A stretch of 64,000 bases of DNA, from NCBI RefSeq assembly GCF_029688865.1, contig NZ_JARUKV010000011.1, positions 62,001 to 126,000 on the forward strand. The letters are read 5' to 3'. This document shows positions 8,644 through 12,688 of the stretch, one piece after another. How positions within the stretch are numbered: the stretch's first letter is position 1; each line of letters begins with the position of its first letter. Source of the DNA: Natronococcus sp. A-GB7 (GTDB taxonomy: Archaea; Halobacteriota; Halobacteria; Halobacteriales; Natrialbaceae). The notes under the pieces were generated by a model that was given only the letters and a program-made list of their open reading frames with translations, did no database searches and was not told where the DNA came from. The position numbers were made by a program, and so were the translations under genes.

Positions 8644-9543
8644 ATGGGAACAGTTGACGTAGCGATCGGCGTCGACGCGGACTGCGTCGCCGGCTGGCTC
8701 GGCTCGTACGGTGGCGAGGACTCCCCCGCTGACCTCTCTCGAGGACTATCCGCCGGAAGCGAGGGGATCCCCCGAATGCTCGCGCTGTTCGACGAACAGG
8801 ACGTCGAGACCTCCTGGTACGTCCCGGGACACACGATCGAAACCTTCCGCGACGAGATCGAAGCCGTCGCGGCCGACGGCCACGAACTGGGCGTCCACGG
8901 TTACTCCCACGAGAATCCGACGGACCTCTCGCGGGAGCAGGAAGACGAGATCCTCGAGGTCTCGATCGAGCTCATCGAGGACGTCACCGGCTCCGAACCC
9001 GTCGGCCACCGCGCCAGCTGGTGGGAGTTCAGCGAGAACACGCCGGAACTCGTCCAGAAGCACGGCTTCGACTACGATAGCAGCTTGATGGAACGGCAGT
9101 TCGAGCCGGGCTGGATGCGAGAGGGCGACAGCTGGGAGAAGATCGACTACGACAAGGATCCGACGACGTGGATGGAGCCGTACCGGTACGGCGAGGAGAC
9201 GGACGTCGTCGAGATCCCGATCAGCTGGTACCGCGACGATATCCCGCCGATGCTGTTTATCAAGCAGCCGGTCTACCACGCCGGCTACAAGGACCCCGAG
9301 ATGATGTACGAGCAGTACTACAAGCGCCAGTTCGACTACCTCTACAACCGGCGGGGATCCGGCGTCTACACCTTCACGATCCACCCCGACCTCCACGGAC
9401 TTCCTCACATGATCCCGTTGTTCGAGGAGTTCATCCAGTACGTCAAGAGCCACGAGAACGCGCAGTTCGTCACCCTCGAGACGATCGCCGAGCGGTTCAG
9501 GGACGATCCGTCGGTGTACGAAAGCGAGAGCAACTACGTCTGA
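8644..9543 (+). CDS. Polysaccharide deacetylase (NodB-like)
   Basis: A 299-residue carbohydrate esterase 4/PuuE-type protein that removes N-acetyl or similar groups in a metal-dependent way. The N-terminal GVDAD (residues 9-13) supplies the aspartate pair, and HGYSHENP near residue 85 supplies the histidine pair. Later, HRASWW and TFTIHPDLHG match the family. There is no signal peptide, so it should act in the cytoplasm or at the membrane face. It is convergent with the ATP-grasp and asparagine-synthase-like genes, and a shared surface-modification pathway is possible but inferred. The ATG at 8644 begins MGTVDVAIGVD, the normal family start. Confidence 0.88.
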   Translation: MGTVDVAIGVDADCVAGWLGSYGGEDSPADLSRGLSAGSEGIPRMLALFDEQDVETSWYVPGHTIETFRDEIEAVAADGHELGVHGYSHENPTDLSREQEDEILEVSIELIEDVTGSEPVGHRASWWEFSENTPELVQKHGFDYDSSLMERQFEPGWMREGDSWEKIDYDKDPTTWMEPYRYGEETDVVEIPISWYRDDIPPMLFIKQPVYHAGYKDPEMMYEQYYKRQFDYLYNRRGSGVYTFTIHPDLHGLPHMIPLFEEFIQYVKSHENAQFVTLETIAERFRDDPSVYESESNYV

Positions 9544-9576
9544 TCGGCCGACCCAAAGCCGGCCTGCGGACGACCG

Positions 9577-10779
9577 TCAGCCGAGTCGTCGGCCGACGGC
9601 GTCCCCGATCTCGTTGCGGACCTGGCGGACGATCGGCATCGGATCGTCGCGGTGGAGGTAGTCGAACGACCGATCCTCGACGCACGATTTCGCGATCTCG
9701 CCGGTCCGGCCCGCGAGCGATGGGCGTTCGACGAACGGCGACTCCTCGCGAGCGACGCTGACGAGGTGCTCGAGTTCGCCGTAGAGGTAGTGCGTGCTGA
9801 CGCCGGTCTCGTAGCTGGGATCGATCAGTTCGCTGCGGCCCGTCGCGGCGAGCCAGTACCAGGCCGGGAAGTCGGCCCCTGCCTTGACCGCACACGCCAG
9901 CGACTGCCACATCCGCGGGTTGATTTCGACGATCGAGAACTCGCCCGTCTCGGCGTCCTCGATGTACTCGATGCAGGCCAGTCCGTGCCACTCGAGTTCG
10001 TCGAGGATCGCCCGGCCCGCTTCCTCGAGTTCGGGGATGTGGACCGACTCGCGGTAGACTCCGCCGCTGCCGGTGTAGGAGTCGCCCCGGAGCTGGCGGT
10101 GCTGGAAGGTGCCAAGCGCCTCGCCGTGTTCGTACAGGGCGCCGAAGACGTACTCGCCGGCGCCCTCGACGTACTCCTGAACGATCGGCTCGTGGCCCAT
10201 CTTCTCGATCAGGGCGTCCGTATCGGGCGTCTCGCCGGGTGCGATGTGTTCGACGGATTTGGCGATCTTCGAGTCCTCGAGTTCGAACTCCTCGAGGTAG
10301 GTGTCGGTGAGCAGGTTGTAGCGGGACTTGACGATCCGGTTGTCGCTCCAGTCTTCGACCTCGGTCAGGAGCTGCGTCTCGGGAATCGCCACGCCAGCAT
10401 CGGTCGCGATCTCCGCGAGCCGTTTTCGATCGTGGACGTTGCGAAGCATCTCCATCGGCGGGACGACGAGGTCGACGTGGCGGTCGAACGCCTCGTAGTC
10501 CCGCGAGAGGATGTACGTGTCGTGCGGGCGGTGCGGGATGATCGTCCGAACGTCGGGGCGTGCGGCCAGGCCGAGCAGCGCGTCCCGGTAGGCCGGGAGG
10601 TCGCTCGGCGGCGGGACGAGCACGGACTCGTCGCAGTACCGCGAGGCGGTGACGCTGAGATTCGTGTCGTCGACCGCGGCGATCGTGTACACGCCCTTCG
10701 AACCCAGCGATCGGACTGAGGTGTACCCGTGTGGATATCTGGATGCAGGGATGACGACCGCGTCGCGTTCGTCACTCAA
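9577..10779 (-). CDS. ATP-grasp carboxylate-amine ligase
   Basis: A 400-residue ATP-grasp enzyme. The N-terminal half is Rossmann-like (PHGYTSVRSLGSKGVYTIAA). The central ATP-grasp region has IVKSRYN and IVQEYVEGAGEYVFGALYE, and the metal/ATP end has IVEINPRMWQSLACAVKAG (the E-x-N-x-R motif). Such ligases couple ATP to joining a carboxylate and an amine via an acyl phosphate. It overlaps the end of the asparagine-synthase-like gene by 8 bases, so the pair is translationally coupled. The substrate cannot be deduced. Confidence 0.88.
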   Translation of the reverse strand: MSDERDAVVIPASRYPHGYTSVRSLGSKGVYTIAAVDDTNLSVTASRYCDESVLVPPPSDLPAYRDALLGLAARPDVRTIIPHRPHDTYILSRDYEAFDRHVDLVVPPMEMLRNVHDRKRLAEIATDAGVAIPETQLLTEVEDWSDNRIVKSRYNLLTDTYLEEFELEDSKIAKSVEHIAPGETPDTDALIEKMGHEPIVQEYVEGAGEYVFGALYEHGEALGTFQHRQLRGDSYTGSGGVYRESVHIPELEEAGRAILDELEWHGLACIEYIEDAETGEFSIVEINPRMWQSLACAVKAGADFPAWYWLAATGRSELIDPSYETGVSTHYLYGELEHLVSVAREESPFVERPSLAGRTGEIAKSCVEDRSFDYLHRDDPMPIVRQVRNEIGDAVGRRLG

Positions 10780-12688
10780 CGTCGATCACCCTCGATTGAC
10801 GGTACCGCGAGACGTTCGGTTTCGTTCGGTTCGGGTCGGTCGTCTCGGAATCGGTGAGGTGGGCGGTTACTGGCATGGTCAGGACGGTCAACAGCGTGTA
10901 CAGCTCACCGACACGGTCCTCATCGTGGCAGTGGGTGTGGTACAGTCTCCGAATCGCGTCCGCGTTCGGACCGGGGAACGCGTCGGCCAGGTGGCCGCGC
11001 CGCTCGAGGACCTCGCCCGTGAAGTCGAACGATCGGAGGAGTTCGGCGTCGTCCAGCCAGGGACCGTCGGTCAGGTACGGTTTCGGCGGCGTCCGGTTGG
11101 TCACGTGTTTGCGCCAGAACTCCAGGAAGTGTTCGCCGGCGTACTCCACCGGAAACGACCGCGAGAGCGAGACGCCGGTGCTGGCGTGTGGAATCGCCGC
11201 GAGATCGGGGTCGAGTCGGGTGACGGCCTGGCCGATCAGATCCCGACGGAGCTTGTACCGGGGCGGCATCGACAGCGAGAGATCGAGCAGTCGGTTGTCG
11301 AGAAACGGGGAGCGGTAGGGCAGCATCCGGCGAAGGTCGCTGTGGAACCGCATGTCGTCGTCGTTCGAAAGCGGATAGCAGTCGCCGTAGTAGACCACGT
11401 CGTCGAGGGACTCGTAGGTGACGCCGTGGTGGACGATCCGATCGCCATCCCGGTAGATGTTCGACTCGAGGATCGTGCGAAGATCGGTCGGCATCTCGAG
11501 GTCGTCGGACGCGGTCTCGAGCAGCAGATCGATGTACTCGTCGACGGAGTCGACGGGACGTTCGATCGGGACCGTCATCGAGCCCAGCGGTCCGAGCGAG
11601 ACGTTCGGCGACGGCACGCCGTACTCGCCGAACAGCGAGTCGCTGTACAGTCCCGACAGCAGTCCGTCGACCCGTTCGGTGATCTCGGCTTCGAACCCGC
11701 TCGTGTACGGCTGGCTGAACCAGCCGTTGAACGAGTCGGCCCAGCGGTTTCGTTCGAGGGCGCCGATGCGGTAGTCGGCCCCGCGCTCGAGCAGCTTGAA
11801 CGCCGCGCCGGCCTCGAGGGCCACTCGCTCGGCGATGCGTGCCTCGCGATTCATCCAGTCGTTCATGTGGAACCCGGTGGCGTCGTCGAGAGCGGCGAGG
11901 ACGAGCCGGGAGTCACTCCCCCCCGACAGCAACACGCCGTACTCGCAGTCGTCGTGTGTCCACTCGTCGACGACGGTCCGGAACCGGTCGGTGAACTCCT
12001 CGACGAACCACTCGAAGGACTCGTCGCGCGGTCGATACCGGGGTCGCCAGTGCTGGTCGACCTGAACCGATGCGTTCTCGAGTCCGACCGACGTGATCGC
12101 TCCGGGCTCGAGCTTTTCGACGCCCTCGAGCGGTGTCTTGACGCCGAACGTGCGCCGAAACGCGAGATACTCGTGGAGATACGCCGGGTGGTACGCGGTG
12201 TCGACGTTCGGATGGAACGGGATCAGTTGGACGTTCGTCGAGAAGACGATCCTGTCGTCGTCGGTCCGCGTCCAGTAGACCGGAACGGTTCCGAATCGGT
12301 CCGTGCAGAGAGTGAACTGGCGCTTCTCTCGGTCGTAGAGCAACAGGGTGTAGTTCCCGTTGAGTCCCTCGAGGAACTCGAACCCCTTTCGTTCGTACAG
12401 AGAGAGACAGTACTGCGCGGGGTCGATGTCGGCGGGCCGGGGCTCGTAGCCACCGGATCGACCCACGCCGCCGGCTTCGTAGCCGTAGACGTCACCGAGC
12501 AGCCAACAGTGAACGGATTCGTTCTCGGCGCCCGCCGACTGACCCGACGAGTGACACTCGTTGGGGTCGGTCGCGATCGCGACGTGGTCGGTCGTGTACT
12601 GAATTGACGGCTCGGACGGGAGCCACTCGTCGAACGCACCACCGGACAGCGACCCATCAGCACAGACCACACCGTTCGTACACCTCAC
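10772..12688 (-). CDS. Asparagine-synthase-like amidotransferase
   Basis: A 638-residue protein with an N-terminal Ntn-like region (NGNYTLLLYDREK, DRFGTVPVYW) and a C-terminal adenylating domain with the PP-loop SGGSDSRLVLAAL near residue 256. In AsnB the first domain begins Met-Cys and that Cys frees ammonia from glutamine. Here the N-terminus reads MRCTNG and no clear MCGI motif is present, so it may not use glutamine. The GTG start at 12688 is supported by an AGGTGA Shine-Dalgarno a few bases upstream. It is the first gene of an operon with the ATP-grasp ligase. The product is unknown: a peptide, glycan or cofactor amide are all possible. Confidence 0.8.
   Translation of the reverse strand: MRCTNGVVCADGSLSGGAFDEWLPSEPSIQYTTDHVAIATDPNECHSSGQSAGAENESVHCWLLGDVYGYEAGGVGRSGGYEPRPADIDPAQYCLSLYERKGFEFLEGLNGNYTLLLYDREKRQFTLCTDRFGTVPVYWTRTDDDRIVFSTNVQLIPFHPNVDTAYHPAYLHEYLAFRRTFGVKTPLEGVEKLEPGAITSVGLENASVQVDQHWRPRYRPRDESFEWFVEEFTDRFRTVVDEWTHDDCEYGVLLSGGSDSRLVLAALDDATGFHMNDWMNREARIAERVALEAGAAFKLLERGADYRIGALERNRWADSFNGWFSQPYTSGFEAEITERVDGLLSGLYSDSLFGEYGVPSPNVSLGPLGSMTVPIERPVDSVDEYIDLLLETASDDLEMPTDLRTILESNIYRDGDRIVHHGVTYESLDDVVYYGDCYPLSNDDDMRFHSDLRRMLPYRSPFLDNRLLDLSLSMPPRYKLRRDLIGQAVTRLDPDLAAIPHASTGVSLSRSFPVEYAGEHFLEFWRKHVTNRTPPKPYLTDGPWLDDAELLRSFDFTGEVLERRGHLADAFPGPNADAIRRLYHTHCHDEDRVGELYTLLTVLTMPVTAHLTDSETTDPNRTKPNVSRYRQSRVIDVE

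Follow-up and report, generated by a model that had tools for sequence, protein, structure and literature searches.

Enzymes of the asparagine synthetase B (AsnB) superfamily do not all draw on glutamine: the beta-lactam and carbapenam synthetases (PDB 1jgt, 1q15) are superfamily members that do without it. Partnership with a second ligase also has a precedent, as the N-acetylglutaminylglutamine amide pathway combines an AsnO-type or AsnB-like amidotransferase with an ATP-grasp synthetase. Both precedents bear on an overlapping gene pair of the haloarchaeon Natronococcus sp. A-GB7, which lies in a 64,000-nt stretch of its genome (assembly GCF_029688865.1, contig NZ_JARUKV010000011.1, positions 62,001-126,000, forward strand), referred to here as the window. 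The pair encodes an asparagine-synthase-like protein, P0003, and an ATP-grasp protein, P0002, and represents a real conserved module, a variant of a known superfamily pairing. Very probably, the two genes form a unit in which glutaminase activity has been lost.

Other close counterparts are found in bacterial surface-glycan loci. Passages of PMC7468200 describe an AsnB-like enzyme of Porphyromonas gingivalis, WbpS, that makes a uronamide, and a Wbp/Vim route in which an amino acid is attached by the GNAT-type protein VimA once a deacetylase has acted; there, the authors link the route to XrtA loci. The haloarchaeal family resembles WbpS and the XrtA/PEP-CTERM amidotransferase (TIGR03108) in its superfamily and in neighbourhoods with FemAB/GNAT proteins, polysaccharide deacetylases and glycosyltransferases, but differs in lacking the glutaminase and in being paired with an ATP-grasp protein. 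Haloarchaeal asparagine-synthase-like proteins have so far been annotated by name alone, and the literature searched yielded nothing joining haloarchaea, 'asparagine synthase' and 'ATP-grasp'. A haloarchaeal branch that has shed its glutamine site, kept its ATP loop and, in one clade, become coupled to an ATP-grasp protein points to amide chemistry not yet characterised, at the archaeal cell surface or close to it.

A conserved overlapping gene pair

An earlier sequence-only reading of the window had drawn attention to three open reading frames (ORFs), and their coordinates and frames agree with it (Table 1). The frames of P0003 and P0002 overlap, while a third gene, P0001, is convergent with P0002 and separated from its stop by 33 bp. 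The same reading took the first two genes to make amide or peptide-like bonds; both do come from superfamilies that form such bonds, and the overlapping arrangement proves to be conserved.

Table 1. Features of the P0003-P0002 locus, in window coordinates
Feature	Coordinates	Strand	Details
P0003, asparagine-synthase-like, 638 amino acids	10772..12688	-	GTG start; GATase_7 (PF13537) 3.7e-11, Asn_synthase (PF00733) 1.3e-10
P0003 domains	10772..12688	-	N-terminal GATase_7-type without Cys2; C-terminal Asn_synthase with SGGSDSR pyrophosphatase loop
P0002, ATP-grasp carboxylate-amine-ligase-type, 400 amino acids	9577..10779	-	TTG start; PF15632 1.5e-5 (below cut-off), PRK06849 2.1e-12
8-bp frame overlap, P0003 stop / P0002 start	10772..10779	-	kept in 17/17 genomes (8 or 11 bp)
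P0001, HpPgdA-like CE4-fold protein, 299 amino acids	8644..9543	+	Polysacc_deac_1 (Pfam); PDB 3qbu match E 9.6e-95; judged an incidental neighbour

Orthologues of P0003, defined as matches above 1090 bits in 125 genomes of the family Natrialbaceae, are held by 17 genomes; four more rows above this score are paralogues (in G000, G002, G004 and G007). An ATP-grasp gene adjoins the orthologue with overlapping frames in every one of these genomes, by 8 bp in 14 and by 11 bp in three (G035, G055 and G150). This count includes G006, in whose record an ambiguous base interrupts the ATP-grasp frame. Copies 95% identical to those in the window are present on contigs of Natronococcus amylolyticus and Natronococcus sp. 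A-GB1, both of the same genus. Among 392 genomes of the phylum, with the three best candidates per genome scored, full-length matches above 500 bits occur in six genomes, all of the same order.

The setting of the pair is far less constant than the pair itself. It is found on chromosomes and on plasmids, namely pHTUR02 and, with an 11-bp overlap, pHTS220, the latter from Haloterrigena salifodinae. Its flanks include MsrA/FxsA and other genes in Natronococcus, plasmid genes in Haloterrigena and a helicase-like protein (916-939 amino acids) with others in G027, G038, G051, G177 and G178, and differ again in G071 and G034. The two genes move jointly between unrelated genomic sites, and the pairwise distances of their proteins correlate across 14 genomes (Mantel r 0.92; 0 of 2000 permutations), with dN/dS between 0.045 and 0.278 in ten comparisons. 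Since the overlap survives several relocations, coupled translation and joint action can be argued, and translational coupling is probable. On a plasmid of Haladaptatus halobius, genes for a relative of P0003 (39% identical) and one of P0002 (61%) converge, with 14 bp between them; this is an independent pairing of the two families.

A viral or phage origin of the pair was considered and rejected: 10 pattern matches in viral_contigs included no relatives, and phage records gave three partial matches covering 26-28% of the query.

Separately, a membrane-plus-winged-helix regulator-like gene and a membrane protein of 97-103 amino acids lie 5' of the pair at three loci (L105 14044-14942, L106 12369-13213 and L132). 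This arrangement spans two different settings and is not present in the window.

Residues kept and replaced in the two proteins

Residue counts were made on 63 distinct family sequences (from 66 loci), aligned with Escherichia coli AsnB and two other proteins that begin with the glutaminase Met-Cys-Gly (MCG). One of these references is a Streptomyces clavuligerus plasmid match, first taken as a beta-lactam synthetase, which is an ordinary MCG-type protein and was used as such. Positions follow E. coli AsnB numbering, with Met counted. Like AsnB (TIGR01536; PDB 1ct9), P0003 has a GATase_7 domain followed by an Asn_synthase domain with the SGGxDS loop, but the two differ at several catalytic positions. 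Cys is present at Cys2 in all three references and in none of the 63 family members (three gaps), Asn is likewise lost at Asn75 (0/63, two gaps), and Asp99 is retained in only seven. Because several independent residues are replaced, the glutaminase appears to be gone.

The sequence-only reading had noted that P0003 begins MRCTNG rather than with Met-Cys-Gly, an observation that the family-wide loss of Cys2 bears out. The frame opens GTG-AGG-TGT and is preceded by an in-frame TGA three codons 5' of the GTG; MRCTNG is therefore the real start, and no longer frame with an MCG start is possible.

The synthetase domain presents a mixed picture. S-G-G-x-D of the pyrophosphatase loop is found in 63/63 sequences, S240 in 62/63 and Asp352 in 62/63, while the residue following SGGxDS is Arg throughout the family versus Ser in E. 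coli. E349 is absent from all 63 (the two other references carry Q and D), and E353 remains in a single member versus all three references. Many residues are invariant across the family alignment. As aligned, the glutamine-hydrolysis site of P0003 is decayed, its ATP pyrophosphatase loop is intact and its amide-forming site is altered; ATP binding is probably kept.

Profile scores show that P0003 is not a member of the curated AsnB, TIGR03108 or TIGR03104 families. It reaches 94.5 bits on TIGR01536 (cut-off 267.1), 76.4 on TIGR03108 (816.9; two relatives reach 65.1 and 107) and 90.2 on TIGR03104 (570.1; E 9.5e-26). Against solved structures, the family profile matches the hydroxyamidotransferase 7ylz (2.4e-22) and AsnB (about 1e-17) more closely than beta-lactam synthetase 1jgt (1.7e-15) or carbapenam synthetase 1q15 (2.7e-8). 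No other signs of a beta-lactam pathway were seen, and no search aimed at them was made.

The genome of the window encodes two more asparagine-synthase-like proteins without Cys2 (L004 and L005), which start MNTELFG and MPGVTVAQ. Several glutaminase-less lineages thus occur within one archaeon.

P0002 is a divergent ATP-grasp protein. Its Pfam scores fall below gathering thresholds (PF15632, 25.2 vs 29.1; PF02786, 17.3 vs 19.8), and NCBI labels its orthologues carboxylate--amine ligase. Nevertheless, E285-I-N287-P-R289, K151 and K174 are invariant in an alignment of 12 rows, so that the predicted metal-binding ExNPR motif and two nucleotide-binding lysines are kept. The family is large in haloarchaea, with some P0002 match in 116 of 149 genomes searched.

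A possible role in surface-glycan synthesis, and competing roles

What the pair might make is suggested by the surroundings of its relatives. Clustering at 75% identity sorts the 66 P0003-family loci into 36 groups; from one locus of each, two neighbours per side were taken and scanned with Pfam. Among these 140 proteins were Phosphodiest (6), Glycos_transf_2 (5), Acetyltransf_6 (5), MurJ (5), Polysacc_synt (4), Polysacc_deac_1 (3, two of them P0001 orthologues) and FemAB (3). For comparison, 157 proteins were prepared from 40 random stretches of the same contigs, and the first 141, covering 36 of the stretches, formed the control. The 25 control families listed, which end at two members, include no family of the above set, so that each can have at most two there. 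A count by phmmer gave 26/140 neighbours versus 2/141 controls, but its probes were drawn from those very neighbourhoods, which biases it; the fair comparison is by the Pfam tallies.

Several of these loci share a recognisable order, in which a P0003-family protein is followed by an alkaline-phosphatase-family phosphodiesterase and then a FemAB-like GNAT. Relatives of P0002 on plasmids adjoin homologues of these two proteins (phosphodiesterase 57% and GNAT/FemAB-like protein 49% identical to those beside the P0003 family), and other plasmid loci of ATP-grasp relatives have glycosyltransferases, an epimerase, a flippase or a deacetylase nearby. The closest paralogue of P0003, 73-74% identical, occurs in four Natronococcus genomes with no ATP-grasp gene at its locus (in G004, the contig ends soon after). 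In G000, it is accompanied by a UDP-glucose/GDP-mannose dehydrogenase, two glycosyltransferases and a 1243-residue protein without a Pfam match, and an epimerase is also found near the paralogue within the genus. For the FemAB-like neighbours the best match is TIGR03019 (XrtA FemAB), and for a deacetylase found near one relative it is TIGR03006 (XrtA deacetylase, 2.3e-60), both below cut-off. FemAB-like protein, XrtA-type deacetylase, glycosyltransferases and flippase make up a set similar to those of the bacterial Wbp/Vim and XrtA systems, which makes the idea of amide-decorated archaeal sugars testable in a two-gene system.

Three further features of these neighbourhoods were recorded. At L115 (6209-9940), L117 and L118, the protein of 1242-1243 residues beside the paralogue has, by eye, about six module repeats and a parallel-beta-helix-like C-terminal part. 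A protein of 700-710 residues, again without a Pfam match and with a C-terminal part that looks CHAT-protease-like, stands beside family members at L121 (6152-8266), L120 (11780-13885), L122 and L123. At L095 (in G096), L096, L163 and L171, one or two family members lie amid an iron-type ABC transporter, a lysine/ornithine N-monooxygenase and a GNAT, a siderophore-like locus.

Extending the glycan role from these relatives, we infer that P0003 and P0002 may be a coupled pair of ligases that form amides on precursors of a surface glycan, using ammonia or an amine in place of glutamine. Taken as a whole chain, this is the preferred reading, although its chance falls somewhat short of even. P0003 would adenylate a carboxylate, which ammonia or an amine-bearing co-substrate would then attack, and P0002 would form a second amide via an acyl phosphate. 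Both enzymes would serve one cytoplasmic pathway at a fixed ratio. The product, which is the less firm part of the scheme, might be an amide-substituted precursor of a cell-surface glycan, such as a uronamide or an aminoacyl-sugar. The scheme would be a variant of the bacterial Wbp/Vim and XrtA sets, with their WbpS-type amidotransferase, GNAT/FemAB protein and deacetylase.

Several observations weigh against it. The window and most pair loci are flanked by non-glycan genes (MsrA, DUF502, FxsA, thioredoxin, helicase-like), and the glycan link consequently rests on paralogues and relatives. The sole pair locus with glycan genes is that of Saliphagus (G034), where the pair adjoins a glycosyltransferase, an epimerase and a gene of the glutamate-cysteine ligase family, and three of the eight plasmid loci of ATP-grasp relatives examined show none. 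With E349 and E353 replaced, amide synthesis by P0003 is not assured, and the K450 region is not reliably alignable. Predicted structures were of low confidence, with a predicted local distance difference test (pLDDT) score of 43.1 for P0003 and 40.1 for P0002 from 12 and 9 alignment rows, respectively, and the models were left unused.

The main competitor, possible though unlikely, is a stand-alone small-molecule pathway. Here the ligases would condense amino acids or organic acids, and the amidated, dipeptide-like product would serve as a compatible solute or be a secondary metabolite. Two genes would suffice for this, no third partner is conserved across settings, and the hosts are haloalkaliphiles, in which solutes matter. 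The layout also recalls the N-acetylglutaminylglutamine amide pathway, with an AsnB-like enzyme beside an ATP-grasp ligase, and P0003 does match the model of its amidotransferase (TIGR03104). However, that match lies below the cut-off, and Cys2 is present in the TIGR03104-type reference but missing from P0003. P0002 was not matched to the known synthetase family of that pathway, and paralogues and relatives of the pair sit in surface-glycan loci.

Replacement of both the glutaminase site and the E349/E353 positions could also mean that P0003 is no longer an enzyme and instead supports the ATP-grasp ligase, either as a scaffold or allosterically. The conservation of S-G-G-x-D and Asp352 and the long list of invariant residues make this improbable, as does the fact that many P0003 relatives stand without an ATP-grasp partner.

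The genus of the window invites another explanation. Natronococcus walls contain a glycosylated polymer of about 60 gamma-linked glutaminyl units, according to passages of PMC4243693, and the pair might amidate or extend this poly-gamma-glutamine glycoconjugate (glutaminylglycan). A route to the polymer via CapC (PF14102) was rejected: CapC is matched in 30 of the 149 genomes, but in none of the nine Natronococcus genomes (G000-G008), so that the polymer may arise in another way. Two of these nine (G003 and G008) nevertheless lack the pair, which is found outside the genus too, plasmids included, and CapB has instead been proposed for the polymer in passages of PMC11915815. The link is attractive but weak, and a role of this kind is quite improbable. 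More improbable still is its boldest form, in which the pair supplies the missing amidation or ligation step of this polymer, or of some related peptide-glycan that is mobile on plasmids. P0003, having lost its glutaminase, would then transfer an amine-bearing sugar or amino acid directly onto a carboxylate, for instance by amide linkage of a glycan to a glutamyl side chain, and P0002 would build the peptide part, independently of CapBC and in a manner undescribed for archaea in the literature searched.

There is similarly little chance that the pair modifies a ribosomally synthesised and post-translationally modified peptide (RiPP), with P0003 as a macrolactam or lasso-type cyclase: lasso cyclases also lack Cys2 and their model NF033535 matches P0003 at 4.4e-13, but with a score of 48.6 versus 525, and neither a leader peptidase nor a RiPP recognition element (RRE) gene was seen. 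No precursor-like small ORF common to all settings was found among 280 small ORFs 5' of the pair in 14 genomes, a search that was not genome-wide. The 12 cross-setting matches (six reciprocal) all involve G001 versus G051 or G177, settings that share regulator-like genes there.

The HpPgdA-like neighbour P0001

The sequence-only reading had enlisted P0001, annotated as a polysaccharide deacetylase, as a third member of the pathway. Orthologues of P0001 (full-length, at least 79% identity) were found in 36 of the 149 genomes; they are adjacent to the pair in five, one gene away in one and elsewhere in 30, and the six beside the pair are all in the genus of the window. Among 14 pair-bearing genomes, P0001 is elsewhere or not found in seven and a remnant in one, Natronococcus sp. 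A-GB1 (G004; L114, L125), in which only residues 4-56 and 256-299 persist beside the pair. The survey that the earlier reading proposed, on the grounds that its idea fails if the three genes rarely co-occur, thus refutes the trio but upholds the pair.

Instead, P0001 has another recurrent neighbour. A PF00710 asparaginase (323-334 amino acids) faces the orthologue in 10 of 20 loci examined (L071, L072, L074 and L076-L082), two of these asparaginases being shortened by gene calls to 216 and 183 amino acids. The arrangement is kept in G003 and G008, where the pair is absent, and in G001, where it is present. On the simplest reading, the pair was inserted beside P0001 and its facing asparaginase, a gene that the other Natronococcus then lost. 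A three-gene operon was rejected, given that P0001 orthologues are mostly elsewhere and with this other partner, and P0001 is judged an incidental neighbour outside the module.

The earlier guess of an amidated glycan may still be right, as relatives of both ligases have a glycan connection, but the 'deacetylase' P0001 is not the gene involved. Members of another deacetylase subfamily do lie close to the pair's relatives; the guess pointed to the right neighbourhood and the wrong gene.

P0001 itself closely resembles HpPgdA (HP0310, PDB 3qbu), including its metal and active-site residues, although the haloarchaeal host has no peptidoglycan. In the alignment, D11, D13, H85, H89, W126, W127 and H247 of P0001 correspond to residues named for HpPgdA in passages of PMC3084791. 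The same passages report that HpPgdA is inactive on the polysaccharide substrates tried, has no polysaccharide groove and is structurally nearest to allantoinase, and passages of PMC9304392 describe its fungal relative HxnM as a cyclic imidase, after which an amide hydrolase acts. By analogy with these proteins, a metabolic imide or amide role is more likely for P0001 than glycan trimming. Together with its asparaginase, P0001 looks like an imide-then-amide hydrolysis pair misannotated as polysaccharide metabolism. This would correct a likely misannotation, placing the 'polysaccharide deacetylase' P0001 with the HpPgdA-like proteins, a group related to cyclic imidases.

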